36,306 nucleotides of DNA, taken from a virus. The translations under genes and the position numbers were made by a program. The notes under the pieces are model-generated. The model ran no database searches and was not told where the DNA came from. It was given only the letters and a program-made list of their open reading frames with translations. Below, piece by piece: positions 21,165-32,298 of the stretch. Position 1 is the stretch's first letter, and the number at the start of each line of letters is the position of its first letter. The DNA lies in IMG/VR virus record IMGVR_UViG_3300046777_002578, positions 1 to 36,306 of that record; one strand, given 5' to 3'.

Positions 21165-21557
21165 ATGGCTGAGACCACGTTCAAACCACCCAAAAGCCTG
21201 GGCGCTTGCGCCGACCGCTTGTACGAGCTGCGTCAGCAACGATTGGCCGTCCAAAAGGAAGTCGACAAGCTAGCGGCTGAAGAAACCTTTTTGCGCGAGC
21301 ACATCATCAACACGCTTCCTAAGTCCGAAGCATCTGGCATTGCTGGTAAACTGGCCCGGGTCACTGTGGTCACCAAGCAGGTGCCGCAGGTCAAGGACTG
21401 GGACGCTTTCTACAAGTTCGTCAAGAAAACCGGCAGCTTTGACCTGCTGCAGCGGCGGCTCACTGACCAAGCCATCAAGGAGCGCTGGGAGGCGGGCAAG
21501 GAGGTGCCTGGGGTTGAGCACTTCAACGCCGTGTCTATCAGCCTCAACAAGGTATGA
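21165..21557 (+). CDS. Early-region protein with N-terminal coiled coil (130 aa)
   Basis: 130 codons from ATG 21165 after promoter P3. Residues about 15-50 form a coiled coil (RLYELRQQRLAVQKEVDKLA, then EETFLREHIINTLPKSEASG), followed by a compact domain with GKLARVTVVTKQVPQVKDWD, FYKFVKKTGSFDLLQRRL and a C-terminal strand HFNAVSISLNKV. This layout is familiar from small proteins next to DNA polymerase in environmental phages, and from Gam-like coiled-coil DNA-end proteins in a very general sense, but I cannot assign it. Its stop overlaps the start of the endonuclease V-like gene as ATGA. Confidence 0.7.
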   Translation: MAETTFKPPKSLGACADRLYELRQQRLAVQKEVDKLAAEETFLREHIINTLPKSEASGIAGKLARVTVVTKQVPQVKDWDAFYKFVKKTGSFDLLQRRLTDQAIKERWEAGKEVPGVEHFNAVSISLNKV

Positions 21558-21964
21558 CCCGCATCAATTGCGTGCCGGCGGCCGAGCTGTGCCGCCAACA
21601 CCTGGTGGCTGAGTACCGCGAGCTGCCCCGTGTATTCAAGCTAGCTGAGGCTGCAGCGCACCGAGGGCAGGTGCAGGCACCCGACGACTACACCTTGGGC
21701 CCTGGGCATGTGAAGTTTTTCTACACTCGCCTGGGCTACTGCCGGCGCCGTTTCCAAGAGCTGGTGGCCGAGCTGCTTCGCCGCGGCTACCACCCGCAGT
21801 ATACTAGCTGTCCGGCCGTCGAGGTGCCGGCCGGCTGGCACCAAGATTGGCAACCGACTGCCGCCAACCTACAGCTGAACCGACAACGTTTGGCCGACCG
21901 TCAACCCAAGCCCGTTGCGTTTAGGCGCGCGCAACTGGTTTCCACTCAGCGTCTGTACCAGTAA
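21554..21964 (+). CDS. denV: Pyrimidine-dimer DNA glycosylase/AP lyase, T4 endonuclease V-like
   Basis: 136 codons from ATG 21554. The N-terminus MTRIN, then ELCRQHLVAEYRELPRVFKL is nearly that of T4 endonuclease V (MTRIN, ELADQHLMAEYRELPRVFG). The catalytic Thr2 (N-terminal amine after Met removal) and Glu23 are both kept, as are Arg3, His16, Arg22 and Arg26. LGPGHVKFFYTRLGYCRRRF, QELVAELLRRGYHP and the C-terminal segment with LQLNRQRLADRQ also follow the family. The enzyme removes UV-induced cyclobutane dimers by glycosylase and AP lyase steps. Length (136) equals the T4 enzyme (138). It lies in the replication block between a coiled-coil protein and the zinc-motif protein, implying early expression to repair incoming sunlight-damaged DNA. 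Confidence 0.92.
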   Translation: MTRINCVPAAELCRQHLVAEYRELPRVFKLAEAAAHRGQVQAPDDYTLGPGHVKFFYTRLGYCRRRFQELVAELLRRGYHPQYTSCPAVEVPAGWHQDWQPTAANLQLNRQRLADRQPKPVAFRRAQLVSTQRLYQ

Positions 21965-28256: not shown

Positions 28257-28619
28257 ATGACCACCAAGCTGTATAACACCCGCGACTCCGCCACTTCTGT
28301 CCTGCGCAAGCTTGGCATCAAGCCCCGCGACTACAATCTGTTCATTCGCAAGATGGACGGCAAGTTTGAGTGCAGTGTTGAAGCGGCTGCTGCCCATCTG
28401 GCGTCTCTGCTGCTGCCCTCGACACAAGCGCCAGCCGCTAAGAAAGCCGCTAAGCGCGTTGGCATCAGCCAAACGGCCCGTGACCTGATTCTGGCTGGCA
28501 AAACCAACGCCGAAGTTTGGGCCGTTTTGCAAGCCCAGTTCAAGCTGGACGACAGCAAAAAGCACTACCCCACGTGGTACCGCAGCGAACTGAAGCGCAA
28601 GGGCCTGTTGGCGGCGTGA
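28257..28619 (+). CDS. Unknown protein with a C-terminal WYR-motif domain (120 aa)
   Basis: 120 codons from ATG 28257; the open frame back to 28173 lies within promoter P4 and is not coding. An N-terminal domain (MTTKLYNTRDSATSVLRKLG, then IKPRDYNLFIRKMDGKFECS) is joined by an AKKAAKR linker to a C-terminal region ARDLILAGKTNAEVWAVLQA, FKLDDSKKHYPTWYRSELKR, KGLL. That final region is clearly related to the C-terminus of the 203-aa protein two genes downstream. It resembles small helical DNA-binding modules found in phages with names such as zinc-free HTH, but the family is not known to me. It is the first gene of the unit driven by P4. Confidence 0.7.
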   Translation: MTTKLYNTRDSATSVLRKLGIKPRDYNLFIRKMDGKFECSVEAAAAHLASLLLPSTQAPAAKKAAKRVGISQTARDLILAGKTNAEVWAVLQAQFKLDDSKKHYPTWYRSELKRKGLLAA

Positions 28620-28828
28620 TGGATAGCATTGAAATTCAGGACGAGGGCAATCAACGCTGGCAGCTGTACGTCAACGGCAGCCCTCGGATCCTACTCACCA
28701 AAAAGCACGGCAGCTTGCAGTTGCATTGGCAAGTCTACGGGCCTCAGCATTGGGCTGAAGCCAAAGTCATTATCCAAGGACTGCTGGAGTTGTCCGTGCT
28801 GGCCGATCAACTAGCCGGAGAAAAATGA
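28619..28828 (+). CDS. Small unknown protein (69 aa)
   Basis: 69 codons, ATG overlapping the previous stop by one base (TGATG). The product MDSIEIQDEGNQRWQLYVNG, RILLTKKHGSLQLHWQVYGP, then AKVIIQGLLELSVLADQL is a strand-rich N-terminal half with one C-terminal helix. No transmembrane segment or catalytic motif is visible. Its stop overlaps the next start as ATGA, so it sits between two proteins that share the WYR domain and may work with them. Confidence 0.65.
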   Translation: MDSIEIQDEGNQRWQLYVNGSPRILLTKKHGSLQLHWQVYGPQHWAEAKVIIQGLLELSVLADQLAGEK

Positions 28829-29436
28829 TGGTGCCTTGCTACGACAGACAGCGACGGACCTGCATCGAGGTGGCTCGGGTCGCGGGCCAGGTCAAGTTTA
28901 TCCCGCTCGACATTACGGAGGGGCTGCAAGTGCACCTCACGTCGGCGGAGTCGTTCGACCAGCGGTATCAACCGATGGTCAACTACCCCATTGAGAAGGC
29001 GGCCCAGCTCTATCTGGGTTACAGCCAAACCATTGGGGCAACCAAGGAGGCCCTGGATTACCTGGGCCAAGTTATCAACGTCAGTGACGAGGAAATGAAG
29101 ATGGCGACAACCAAAAAGACTGTGGCCGCGGCGGCCGCAGAAAAGACGACGGCCAAGCCGGTCCAGGCGGCCAAGCCGACTAAGGCCAAGCCGGTCCAGG
29201 CGGCCAAGCCGGTGGCGGCCAAGTCGACTAAGGCTAAGCCGGTGGCAACCGAAAAGAAACCCTCTGCCGCCCAGCTGTTCAAGGACCTGATCATGGCCGG
29301 CAAATTGACCGACGACCAAATTTTTGAGCGCGTCAAGAACGAGTTCGGACTGGAGTCAAACAAGCGCGCTTACGTCAACTGGTACCGCAACAACCTGAAA
29401 AAGCAGGGTTTGAACCCGCCCGAGCCCAAGGCTTAA
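28825..29436 (+). CDS. WYR-domain protein with a histone H1-like AKP linker (203 aa)
   Basis: 203 codons from ATG 28825. The N-terminal 90 residues are a mixed alpha/beta domain (LDITEGLQVHLTSAESFDQR, NYPIEKAAQLYLGYSQTIGA). Residues about 98-148 are an Ala/Lys/Pro-rich linker with 11-residue repeats (AKPVQAAKPTK), like histone H1 tails or bacterial HctB-type DNA binders. The C-terminal 50 residues (LFKDLIMAGKLTDDQIFERV, FGLESNKRAYVNWYRNNLKK, QGL) match the C-terminus of the 120-aa protein upstream. A basic linker plus conserved C-terminal module suggests DNA binding, perhaps of phage or host chromosome; this is inference. Confidence 0.7.
   Translation: MMVPCYDRQRRTCIEVARVAGQVKFIPLDITEGLQVHLTSAESFDQRYQPMVNYPIEKAAQLYLGYSQTIGATKEALDYLGQVINVSDEEMKMATTKKTVAAAAAEKTTAKPVQAAKPTKAKPVQAAKPVAAKSTKAKPVATEKKPSAAQLFKDLIMAGKLTDDQIFERVKNEFGLESNKRAYVNWYRNNLKKQGLNPPEPKA
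29152..29250 (+). repeat. 33-base tandem repeat coding for the AKP linker
   Basis: Units start at 29152 and 29185, each beginning GCCAAGCCGGTCCAGGCG, followed by a third degenerate unit to about 29250. Each encodes 11 residues of the AKPVQAAKP type. In-frame, so copy number can change without breaking the gene. Confidence 0.75.
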
Positions 29437-29467: not shown

Positions 29468-30274
29468 ATGCCCAAGACCAAGGAAATTGCACGCGACACG
29501 CGTGATTACGACACCACGCAGCTGCACGAAGCTGGCCATGGCCGCACTCTGCACCGTGACTACTCAGCCCATTTTTTCCGCTGGAGCTTTGCCCGCCGAT
29601 TTGTTTCGGCCAAAGACAACGTGCTGGAGGTTGGCTGCGGTGAGGACAAGCCGCTGAGCAAGATCCTGACCGGCGTCGCCGCCGCCCACGTAGGTCACTA
29701 CACCGGCGTGGACCTCAACAAGCTGAAGCCGTCCAACAGCCAGCGGCTGGAGTTCCACGGTGACTTCAACTTTGTTGAGCGCTACAAGGAACTGCTCAAG
29801 AAGCGGCCCGAAGGCTGGGACGTGCTGGTGAACTACGAGGTCATCGAGCACATGAAGATCGAGCATGGCGCCAACCTGCTCAAGGCCATGTTTGCCTGCA
29901 CTAAGCCAGGTGGTGTGCTGCTTTTGTCTACGCCTGTTTATGACGGCAAGCGCCACGCGGCCAATCACATCCATGAGTACACCGTGACTGAGTTGCAGGG
30001 CTACATTGAGCGGGCTGGCTATTCCGTTGAACGGCGCTTTGGCACCTTCATGGACATCAAGCACATCGGCAAGGTGGAACCTACTGGTGCCAGCAAGGCG
30101 GCTGTGCTTGAAGTGCGGAAGGCGTTGGAGCAGTACTTTGACAACGACGCCATCAGCAACATCTTTGGCCCATTGCATCAAGACCATGCCCGCAACAACT
30201 TGTGGGTTTGCCGCAAAGCAATTGACGGAAAACCCTTCAAGCCGGCCTCCCGTAAAACTGGAGCGCCATTCTGA
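29468..30274 (+). CDS. Class I SAM-dependent methyltransferase
   Basis: 268 codons from ATG 29468, with CGGAG upstream after a short CAC-repeat gap. The Rossmann motif NVLEVGCGED (from about residue 51), the acidic strand end VGHYTGVDLNKL, the DVLVNYEVIEHM segment (motif IV-like) and LLLSTPVYDGKRHAANHIHE, with the strand after the catalytic region, mark a class I methyltransferase similar to the UbiE/SAM type. The VIEHM and HEY(T/S) patterns are those of small-molecule or sugar-lipid methyltransferases rather than the DPPY/ NPPF DNA-amine enzymes. It is the first gene of a cluster with nucleotide-metabolism enzymes, so a modified-nucleotide substrate is possible but unproven. Confidence 0.8.
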   Translation: MPKTKEIARDTRDYDTTQLHEAGHGRTLHRDYSAHFFRWSFARRFVSAKDNVLEVGCGEDKPLSKILTGVAAAHVGHYTGVDLNKLKPSNSQRLEFHGDFNFVERYKELLKKRPEGWDVLVNYEVIEHMKIEHGANLLKAMFACTKPGGVLLLSTPVYDGKRHAANHIHEYTVTELQGYIERAGYSVERRFGTFMDIKHIGKVEPTGASKAAVLEVRKALEQYFDNDAISNIFGPLHQDHARNNLWVCRKAIDGKPFKPASRKTGAPF

Positions 30275-30666
30275 TGATCGGAAATGTTGCTGAATTCCAT
30301 GAGAAGTTTGGTCTTCCCAATGGGGCAACCGATCAACTCATGCAAGACCCTGCTGCGCAGGAATTTCGCGTTAAGTTCCTTCAAGAAGAACTGGACGAGC
30401 TCAAGGAGGCTTTGGCTACTGGTGACAAGGTTGGGGCCTTTGATGCTCTGCTCGATCTGGCTTACGTGGCCTACGGCACAGCACTCTTTGCCGGAATTGA
30501 TCCTGCTCAGTGGCACGCCGGCATGCACGCAGTTCATTCTGCTAACATGGCCAAGATCCGCGTAGCCAAGGCTGAAGACTCGAAACGCGGCAGCGCGTTC
30601 GACGTCAAGAAGCCGGCAGGTTGGGTAGGTCCTGAATCTCGCTTGAAGGAAATTTTGTCGTGGTGA
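30274..30666 (+). CDS. MazG/PRA-PH-like nucleotide pyrophosphohydrolase
   Basis: 130 codons, ATG overlapping the methyltransferase stop by one base. The all-alpha NTP pyrophosphohydrolase pattern is visible: FLQEELDELKEALATGD (EExxE metal-binding), then FDALLDLAYVAYGTALFAGI (Asp of the D-x3-D motif) and HSANMAKIR. This family removes pyrophosphate from (d)NTPs. Next to the thymidylate synthase-like and dCMP deaminase genes it would supply dNMP, for instance dCMP from dCTP, or remove unwanted nucleotides. Substrate is not determined by the sequence. Length is typical of phage versions. Confidence 0.85.
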   Translation: MIGNVAEFHEKFGLPNGATDQLMQDPAAQEFRVKFLQEELDELKEALATGDKVGAFDALLDLAYVAYGTALFAGIDPAQWHAGMHAVHSANMAKIRVAKAEDSKRGSAFDVKKPAGWVGPESRLKEILSW

Positions 30667-31043
30667 CCACAATGAAAACCAAATCACTGCTGCCTGCCAC
30701 TCAATTGGCTGAATGCTCGACTGTCGAACTGCTGGAAGAGCTCCAGTCTCGTGGTGGTCATCCCGGCGCTTTGGCCGAAGCCGCTTTGCTTTGCATCCGC
30801 AAAAGCCAAGACTACAATCAAAATGCTGCGGATATGGATCCGCACAAGATTGATCGGTCGTCGTATTTCCCATTTGGCACCGTGAGCTACGCCCAAATGC
30901 TCCATACCAAGTCTCAGCGCTTCAACTCGTTGGTCCTCAAAGAGATGCGTGGCCAAGATGCGAATTTTGAAGGCCTGCGTGACACGGCGCTGGACATCAT
31001 CAACTATGCTGGCTTCTTTGCTGGCGCCTACACGAAGGACTAG
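30660..31043 (+). CDS. DUF1599-like nucleotide-modification-associated protein (127 aa)
   Basis: 127 codons from GTG 30660 (a second GTG at 30663 overlaps the previous stop as GTGA; AAGGA lies upstream). The pattern IRKSQDYNQ, then YAQMLHTKSQRFNSLV and LRDTALDIINYAGFFAGAY resembles the DUF1599/Nmad-type small helical proteins, where KxxDYN, K-x2-R and DxxNYA are conserved. Such proteins occur in phages beside nucleotide and base modification enzymes; catalytic role is unproven. Its location between the pyrophosphohydrolase and the thymidylate synthase homologue strengthens that reading. Confidence 0.65.
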   Translation: MVTTMKTKSLLPATQLAECSTVELLEELQSRGGHPGALAEAALLCIRKSQDYNQNAADMDPHKIDRSSYFPFGTVSYAQMLHTKSQRFNSLVLKEMRGQDANFEGLRDTALDIINYAGFFAGAYTKD

Positions 31044-31045
31044 CC

Positions 31046-31834
31046 ATGGATTTTTCCCAGACGTGGTTGGAAGCCATCAATGACGTGCTTGCCAACGGTG
31101 AACTGGTAGCACCCAGGGGCAAGGTTACCAAGGAGCTGCCCCAGCGCACCATGGTAGTTGACATGCGGCGCCCGGTGCTGTTAGTACCGGAACGCCGTTT
31201 GAGCTACCGGTTCATGGTGGCTGAGGCCTACTGGATTTTGTCAGGCGACGACACGGTGGCTGGGATTGCGCCCTACAACAGCCGAATTGCCGAGTTCAGT
31301 GACGACGGCCAGCGGTTTTTCGGCGCCTACGGGCCTAAGATCTTGGGGCAGCTGGACTACGTGGTGGCCAAGCTTAAGGCGGATCACGATACCCGCCAGG
31401 CCGGCCTGACCATTTGGCGCGAAAATCCACCGGCTACTAAAGATGTGCCTTGCACCGTGGCCATCTTCTTTAGCTTGAGGGGCATGGCGCTTAACGCCCA
31501 CGTGTTTATGCGGTCTAGTGACATTTGGCTGGGGGTACCATACGATGTTTTCAACTTTAGTATGCTCAGCCATTTGGTTTGCGGGCTGCTCAATGACCAG
31601 CGGGCCAGTGATGACGTCTATGCACCTGGTAAGTTGTACTTGACGGCTGCTAGCAGCCACTTGTACGAGCCCAACTGGGCCGATGCTAGATTGTGCCTTC
31701 ACAGCTCAGTAGGCAAGCAGGTACCAACACCAAAGCTGTTGTGGAACGATCACCGAGCTCTAATGGACCAGCTAAAAAAGCTGCGGGACACCCTGTCAGG
31801 CCATGAATCGCGGTGGTGGGAGTGGCCAGTATGA
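31046..31834 (+). CDS. Thymidylate synthase-family protein with dCMP-type active site (putative dCMP hydroxymethylase or methylase)
   Basis: 262 codons from ATG 31046, two bases after the previous stop. The family core is complete: FGAYGPKI, DTRQAGLTIW, catalytic Cys136 in VPCTVAIFF, FMRSSDIWLGVPYDVFNFSM and the C-terminal SSHLYEPN (His205, Tyr207). In thymidylate synthases the residue after GLPF is Asn (E. coli Asn177), which selects dUMP. Here it is Asp167, the change found in T4 dCMP hydroxymethylase, and Cys is followed by Thr as in that enzyme, instead of His. The enzyme therefore likely acts on dCMP to make 5-hydroxymethyl- or 5-methyl-dCMP. Sequence alone does not separate hydroxymethylation from methylation. 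Confidence 0.75.
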   Translation: MDFSQTWLEAINDVLANGELVAPRGKVTKELPQRTMVVDMRRPVLLVPERRLSYRFMVAEAYWILSGDDTVAGIAPYNSRIAEFSDDGQRFFGAYGPKILGQLDYVVAKLKADHDTRQAGLTIWRENPPATKDVPCTVAIFFSLRGMALNAHVFMRSSDIWLGVPYDVFNFSMLSHLVCGLLNDQRASDDVYAPGKLYLTAASSHLYEPNWADARLCLHSSVGKQVPTPKLLWNDHRALMDQLKKLRDTLSGHESRWWEWPV

Positions 31835-32298
31835 GGCCCAGCCGCGATGAATGGGCTATGCAGCTGGCCTTGCTGACTGCCAAGCGGGCCACGTGTCTGC
31901 GCCGCCAAGTGGGGTGCGTGTTATTGAACGCTCGGGGCCACGTGCTGGCCACTGGCTACAACGGGGTGGCTGCCGGCCAGCCGCACTGCAATCAATACGA
32001 CCACTTCCATCCGATTGGTTTCCCTGACGCGTGCGCCGGGGCCCATGCTGCCAGCGGCACCAATTTGGATGGTTGCCAAGCCATTCACGCTGAGCAGAAT
32101 GCCCTGTTGCAGTGCCGAGACGTCTATGCCATTGACACAGTTTACGTGACGGCTAGTCCGTGCGTGACTTGCACTAAGCTGCTGCTCAACACCAGTTGTG
32201 AGCGGATAGTTTATGCGGAGACTTACCCGCATTCGGCTGCACAAGAGCTTTGGCTGGGTGCCGGGCGGAGATGGCAGCATTACCAGGAAGCTGCATGA
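31831..32298 (+). CDS. dCMP deaminase-type zinc enzyme
   Basis: 155 codons from ATG 31831, which overlaps the previous stop as ATGA; an upstream in-frame GTG at 31813 is less likely. The zinc site is complete: HAEQNALLQC (His86, Glu88) and SPCVTC (Cys111, Cys114). The N-terminal AKRATCLRRQVGCVLLNARG and the insertion with HCNQYDHFHPIGFPDACAG are as in phage dCMP deaminases, which need an additional zinc-binding His/Cys set. It converts dCMP to dUMP, the substrate for dTMP synthesis. Placed beside a dCMP-specific synthase it could compete for, or balance, the dCMP pool. Confidence 0.9.
   Translation: MRPSRDEWAMQLALLTAKRATCLRRQVGCVLLNARGHVLATGYNGVAAGQPHCNQYDHFHPIGFPDACAGAHAASGTNLDGCQAIHAEQNALLQCRDVYAIDTVYVTASPCVTCTKLLLNTSCERIVYAETYPHSAAQELWLGAGRRWQHYQEAA

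Follow-up and report, generated by a model that had tools for sequence, protein, structure and literature searches.

A predicted phage dCMP 5-hydroxymethylase linked to a candidate base-tailoring methyltransferase

The analysed DNA (hereafter the window) was a whole IMG/VR virus record, a linear and possibly incomplete contig of 36,306 bases. It encoded a cassette in the order SAM methyltransferase, MazG, DUF1599-like protein, hydroxymethylase and dCMP deaminase, with the following features:

28825..29436, + strand: conserved Lys/Ala-rich protein just upstream of the methyltransferase (phrog_17205; position kept in most close relatives)
29468..30274, + strand: class I SAM-dependent methyltransferase, candidate tailoring enzyme, 268 aa (PF13489, 1.7e-13)
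30274..30666, + strand: MazG-like NTP pyrophosphohydrolase (PRA-PH), probable dCTP-removing step (PF01503, 1.7e-12)
30660..31043, + strand: DUF1599-like protein (nucleotide modification associated domain 1), 127 aa (phrog_18404, 7.7e-18; PF07659, E 0.037, below cut-off)
31046..31834, + strand: predicted dCMP 5-hydroxymethylase (thymidylate synthase homologue), 262 aa, ATG start
31442..31456, + strand: D-V-P-C-T segment with Asp133 (T4 Asp145 position), catalytic Cys136 and Thr137, read directly
31544..31546, + strand: codon of Asp167 (E. coli Asn177, T4 Asp179), predicted cytosine-selecting residue, placed by alignment
31831..32298, + strand: dCMP deaminase, 155 aa, predicted to supply dUMP for thymidylate and to lower dCMP (PF00383, 5.9e-22; phrog_174, 2.7e-39)

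The neighbouring products of 28257-28619 and 28825-29436 both matched phrog_17205 C-terminally, and most close relatives retained the two ahead of the methyltransferase. Elsewhere in the window, 21554-21964 matched the pyrimidine dimer DNA glycosylase family to which T4 endonuclease V belongs (PF03013, 6.6e-14), and PADLOC returned only generic helicase, Cas4-like and methyltransferase matches for the record. Thymidylate synthase (TS), PRA-PH and dCMP deaminase genes co-occur on modified-cytosine contigs in the MetaGPA study (PMC8670742).

In many sister phages, the slot of the DUF1599-like gene was occupied by a P-loop kinase. No P-loop kinase for hydroxymethyl-dCMP was found in the record, so its phosphorylation would fall to the host or to an unrecognised protein. 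The sister-phage kinases lying between MazG and the hydroxymethylase (L059:7172-8083; AXL3 gp29, L040:9013-9996; L036:4956-5950) carried a C-terminal domain that weakly resembled the uracil-DNA glycosylase superfamily (below cut-off, with an E-value of about 0.03 for PF03167).

The product of 31046..31834 matched PF00303 (Thymidylat_synt) with an E-value of 3.9e-21 and 75.8 bits (cut-off 24.3). No other product of the record matched this family, and neither a ThyX-type synthase nor a dihydrofolate reductase (DHFR) was found in it; the view of the earlier note that there is no second thymidylate synthase thus holds for this record, for ThyA and ThyX types alike. The nearest solved structure, ahead of every thymidylate synthase by both sequence and fold, was MilA, a CMP hydroxymethylase of mildiomycin biosynthesis (best PDB sequence match, 8.3e-17; top Foldseek match of the AF2 model, 1.3e-18, with a model pLDDT of 90.4). 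The model matched thymidylate synthase structures as well as MilA. At the C-terminus, E. coli residues 261-264 aligned opposite gaps, and the protein ended in WWEWPV with its last residues poorly modelled.

Assignment within the fold relied on an alignment that took in E. coli ThyA, T4 gp42, SPO1 gp29 and other phage proteins. The Xp12 type was represented by its close relatives AXL1 and DLP4 and by the related Mallos enzyme, not by Xp12 itself (MT664984). At E. coli positions 143/147/177, the residues read L/H/N in ThyA, D/N/N in the SPO1 dUMP hydroxymethylase and Montesquieu, N/P/D in AXL1, DLP4 and Mallos, and D/T/D in T4 gp42, Xp15, AXL3, PW916 and the window. The Pfam match, the alignment and a position check bore out the proposal that a thymidylate synthase homologue here carries Asp167 at the place of E. 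coli Asn177, where T4 gp42 also has Asp. Likewise, Cys136 and Thr137 aligned with Cys146 and His147 of ThyA, in agreement with the earlier reading of a Cys followed by Thr, as in T4, and not by His. Asp133, Cys136, Thr137 and Asp167 were invariant across 17 aligned homologues (47-75% identity). Another 88 viral loci, overlapping partly with the contigs of the first set, had D/C/T/D in 87 cases and D/C/S/D in one. Because of this conservation, the residue set of the window is not due to chance. Positions 177 and 147 are also the two residues most strongly associated with modified-cytosine phage contigs in MetaGPA (PMC8670742).

The earlier note had left the product as either 5-hydroxymethyl- or 5-methyl-dCMP. 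Its dCMP part stood, as Asp at 177 and a non-His residue at 147 predict dCMP selectivity, and the choice between the two products narrowed to hydroxymethyl with Asp133. Asp177 by itself leaves the choice undecided, since the N229D variant of L. casei thymidylate synthase becomes a dCMP methylase (Liu and Santi 1992, as cited in PMC8670742). In the ternary structure of T4 gp42, Asp145, three residues before the catalytic Cys, activates the hydroxylating water, at a position where ThyA has Leu, and an acidic residue at this position was named a hydroxymethylase signature (PMC6400193). The window, T4 gp42, SPO1 gp29 and Xp15 all have such a residue. Asp133 therefore favours a hydroxymethyl over a methyl product. 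One element of the published signature, a Ser or Thr at the T4 Ser94 position two residues ahead of the catalytic Tyr, was missing, Gly93 standing there before Tyr95; this lowers confidence only slightly, as SPO1 gp29 has Ala at that position and T4 S94A retains about 25% of activity (PMC6400193). The window enzyme is thus not fully a member of the narrow T4 signature group, and the claim made here is that it probably works like T4 gp42.

The sugar pocket pointed to a deoxyribonucleotide substrate. MilA owes its ribose preference to an Ala and a Lys (PMC5175136), Ala176 and Lys133, which are replaced in the window by the deoxy-selective Ser157 and Arg117, so dCMP rather than CMP is the expected substrate. 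MilA otherwise resembled the window enzyme (D-V-A-C-T against D-V-P-C-T, and Asp at the base-selecting site), but a MilA-type CMP hydroxymethylase was rejected on this pair. A dUMP hydroxymethylase of the SPO1 gp29 kind was rejected as well, having Asn at both 177 and 147 where the window has Asp and Thr. With T4 gp42 the window enzyme shared the fold, the Cys-Thr pair, Asp at 177, Asp three residues before Cys and the deoxy-selective Arg and Ser, while sequence similarity was low and T4 Ser94 was replaced by Gly93.

Taken together, these features make a phage dCMP 5-hydroxymethylase, rather than a thymidylate synthase, the very probable product of the gene, adding a member to an enzyme kind already known; a dCMP methylase is improbable. 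An Xp12-type dCMP methylase, yielding 5-methyl-dCMP by hydride transfer, shares Asp177 and an adjoining dCMP deaminase with the window, and Xp12 DNA is 100% 5mC; the conversion of thymidylate synthase by Asp177 alone speaks for it too. It was nonetheless rejected, and we consider it very unlikely: AXL1, DLP4 and Mallos have Asn143 and Pro147 and an adjacent DHFR, all missing in the window, and AXL3 DNA (below) resists two enzymes able to cut Xp12 DNA. A dCMP methylase oxidises tetrahydrofolate to dihydrofolate, and a DHFR neighbour therefore fits a methylase. The combination of Asn143/Pro147/Asp177 and DHFR was seen in the Xp12 relatives and is not a published criterion. In a maximum-likelihood tree, the 5mC-type enzymes joined E. 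coli ThyA (98/98) while the window clade fell elsewhere; as several branches were long, the tree can be trusted only in coarse outline. An ordinary thymidylate synthase fed by the adjoining dCMP deaminase, as the AXL3 record assumes in annotating its enzyme 'thymidylate synthase', is still more improbable and was rejected, because Asn177, His147 and Leu143 of ThyA are replaced by Asp, Thr and Asp, fixed across the clade, and because AXL3 and PW916 both carry ThyX and need no such homologue for dTMP.

The fold, the residues and the cassette, all read from the sequence, lead us to infer an activity, a removal of dCTP, an extent of cytosine replacement and a purpose as follows. The MazG-like pyrophosphohydrolase would convert dCTP to dCMP, the C6 of which would be attacked by Cys136, with Asp167 selecting cytosine. 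A one-carbon unit would be drawn from methylenetetrahydrofolate, and water, activated by Asp133, would be added in place of hydride to the exocyclic methylene, yielding 5-hydroxymethyl-dCMP and tetrahydrofolate. The product would be raised to the triphosphate by a host or unrecognised kinase and built into DNA instead of cytosine, while the adjacent deaminase would convert surplus dCMP to dUMP and so feed thymidylate synthesis. The modification probably serves to hide the genome from host restriction enzymes.

The earlier prediction of modified cytosine in the virions finds its support by analogy, in the restriction resistance of a phage with the same core cassette. Stenotrophomonas phage AXL3 and Pseudoxanthomonas phage PW916 share this core with the window (hydroxymethylase 57-59% and methyltransferase 70-71% identical; 57% and 71% for AXL3). 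They differ in being siphoviruses with ThyX, and in them a kinase-like gene fills the slot of the DUF1599-like gene, so that the AXL3 order runs methyltransferase, MazG, kinase, hydroxymethylase, deaminase; their enzymes are annotated as thymidylate synthase or dUMP hydroxymethylase. AXL3 DNA withstood all but 2 of the 37 enzymes applied, the exceptions being TasI (AATT) and Tru1I (TTAA), whose sites contain A and T only, and the authors suspected that its G/C bases are altered (PMC7504290). KpnI and Eam1105I were among the enzymes used (PMC7504290), and 9 and 4 sites for them, respectively, were present in the 20.8 kb of AXL3 examined. KpnI and AhdI, an isoschizomer of Eam1105I, cut the 5mC DNA of Xp12 completely (PMC7653180), and partial cutting by KpnI and AhdI was reported for AXL1 DNA, from a close relative of Xp12. 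Since KpnI and Eam1105I fail on AXL3 DNA while KpnI and AhdI cut that of Xp12, AXL3 DNA is unlikely to be simply 5mC. Counts of restriction-motif sites in the window itself were uninformative.

The methyltransferase at the head of the cassette (METHYLTRANSFERASE) was closely tied to the hydroxymethylase. A homologue was present in only 5 of 50,697 phage records, and all five carried the hydroxymethylase. In IMG/VR, 45 loci had the methyltransferase, and the hydroxymethylase was found in all but three of them, which end before its place. Among 90 loci (distinct hydroxymethylase sequences with enough flank, fetched by either query), the methyltransferase lay within the fetched flanks in 70, a PLP-dependent enzyme with phrog_13881 in 3, a carbamoyltransferase in 2, an AGT-like glucosyltransferase in 2 and a DHFR in 1 (the Mallos methylase), while 12 had no recognised tailoring gene; two tailoring classes occurred together in none of the 90. 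Because the 45 loci came from the methyltransferase query, the count was repeated on the loci from hydroxymethylase queries alone. Leaving out 27 truncated loci, the methyltransferase was present in 53 of 68, the PLP set in 3, the glucosyltransferase in 2, the carbamoyltransferase in 1 and none in 9.

The linkage was kept across two methyltransferase subfamilies about 30% identical and with different replication genes around. The methyltransferase lay downstream of the hydroxymethylase in L108-L116, and in L094 the order was reshuffled, with the two genes overlapping. A pattern scan with the divergent ct3Et533 methyltransferase found nothing; divergent members were recovered via the hydroxymethylase queries. 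In Xp15 and L034, a carbamoyltransferase stood upstream of MazG, at the position of the window's methyltransferase. The Xp15 cassette and MetaGPA contigs otherwise resembled the window in combining MazG, a D/T/D hydroxymethylase and dCMP deaminase within a single operon, and T4 partners gp42 with glucosyltransferases where the window cassette has a methyltransferase.

One hydroxymethylase locus (L131:7963-10238) held a DNA alpha-glucosyltransferase-like gene (PF11440, 1e-4, below cut-off) beside a C5 cytosine methylase (PF00145, 3e-26). Two others (L132:6184-7906 and L161:754-3814) encoded the PLP-dependent enzyme (phrog_7093) with phrog_13881, possibly an amino-acid-type hypermodification set for 5hmC. 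At L035:7098-8869, an N-terminally extended dCMP deaminase (275 aa) lay beside a ThyX gene and next to a D/T/D hydroxymethylase. The full cassette was also found on L099 (DYMC01000001.1, Lentisphaera MAG) and L100 (JALTPW010000176.1, Chromatiales MAG); as the gene order is that of the phages, these are probably phage contigs binned with bacteria.

The nearest PDB sequences of the methyltransferase were the O-methyltransferases UbiG, JHAMT and bacterial Hen1, the last as the Hen1 domain entries 3jwg and 3jwi. A fold search gave generic class I matches only. The protein displayed an E124xxE127H128 ... H167 set, with ExxEH after beta-4 and the His after beta-5, about 98% conserved in 87 homologues. 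Human HEN1 has its metal ligands in the same order and at corresponding spacing (E132, E135, H136 and H181; PMC10781085). Linkage, mutual exclusion with other tailoring genes and the Hen1-like set together make the methyltransferase a candidate tailoring enzyme.

Extending the predicted hydroxymethylase reaction, the linked methyltransferase could O-methylate the 5-hydroxymethyl group, at the nucleotide or the DNA level, to give 5-methoxymethyl-dC; this is the simplest reading, which we put forward tentatively from sequence comparison. It is consistent with the frequency of the association (70 of 90 loci), which holds whichever side of the hydroxymethylase the methyltransferase lies on and also where the gene order is reshuffled, with the truncation of the only three loci lacking the hydroxymethylase, and with the absence of the methyltransferase beside any carbamoyltransferase (2), AGT-like glucosyltransferase (2) or PLP set (3). 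The conserved Hen1-like set, the O-methyltransferases among the best PDB matches and the failure of KpnI and Eam1105I on AXL3 DNA point the same way. However, ExxEH is widespread in UbiG-type enzymes, the fold matches are non-specific, plain 5hmC may block KpnI and Eam1105I too, 12 hydroxymethylase loci have no recognised tailoring gene, and the class counts rest on few (7) non-methyltransferase loci.

It is equally possible that the methyltransferase has no part in base modification and serves RNA protection, as a Hen1-like 2'-O-methyltransferase, or acts on another small-molecule substrate. Of the enzymes described, Hen1 and UbiG are closest to it, and only the class I fold is recognised; the E-x-x-E-H motif and later His at similar spacing are shared with Hen1, as is the O-methyltransferase group. 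It differs from Hen1 in that no RNA-repair partner was seen and that the family occurs almost only in hydroxymethylase phages. Against this reading, the close linkage holds in divergent phages, and the other tailoring genes are mutually exclusive with it.

If O-methylation of 5hmC is the role of the linked enzyme, the window could represent a system widely distributed among phages, in which the making of 5-hydroxymethyl-dCMP is coupled to a SAM-dependent, metal-using O-methyltransferase and 5-methoxymethylcytosine or another methylated 5hmC would take the place of genomic cytosine. In such a system, methyl, carbamoyl, glucosyl and PLP-dependent enzymes would be interchangeable tailoring modules on one hydroxymethylase cassette. 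The methyltransferase-linked hydroxymethylase cassette is new here, with an earlier notice in Iyer et al. 2013 possible. A literature search found no paper on methoxymethylcytosine in phages, and a 2025 account of 5-hydroxymethyl tailoring lists glycosylation, amination and carbamoylation, methylation not being mentioned there (PMC12783734).

The residue triad separates four enzymes that are all called thymidylate synthase in databases, and phages with modified cytosine can therefore be recognised. The annotations of AXL3 and PW916 are probably wrong and merit revisiting. If the methyltransferase caps 5hmC, methylation would join glycosylation, amination and carbamoylation as a form of tailoring of the 5-hydroxymethyl group, and the resulting base, a modified base for which no earlier description was found, would likely escape both ordinary and 5hmC-directed restriction. 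AXL3 is a cultured phage, which makes the capping reading testable.
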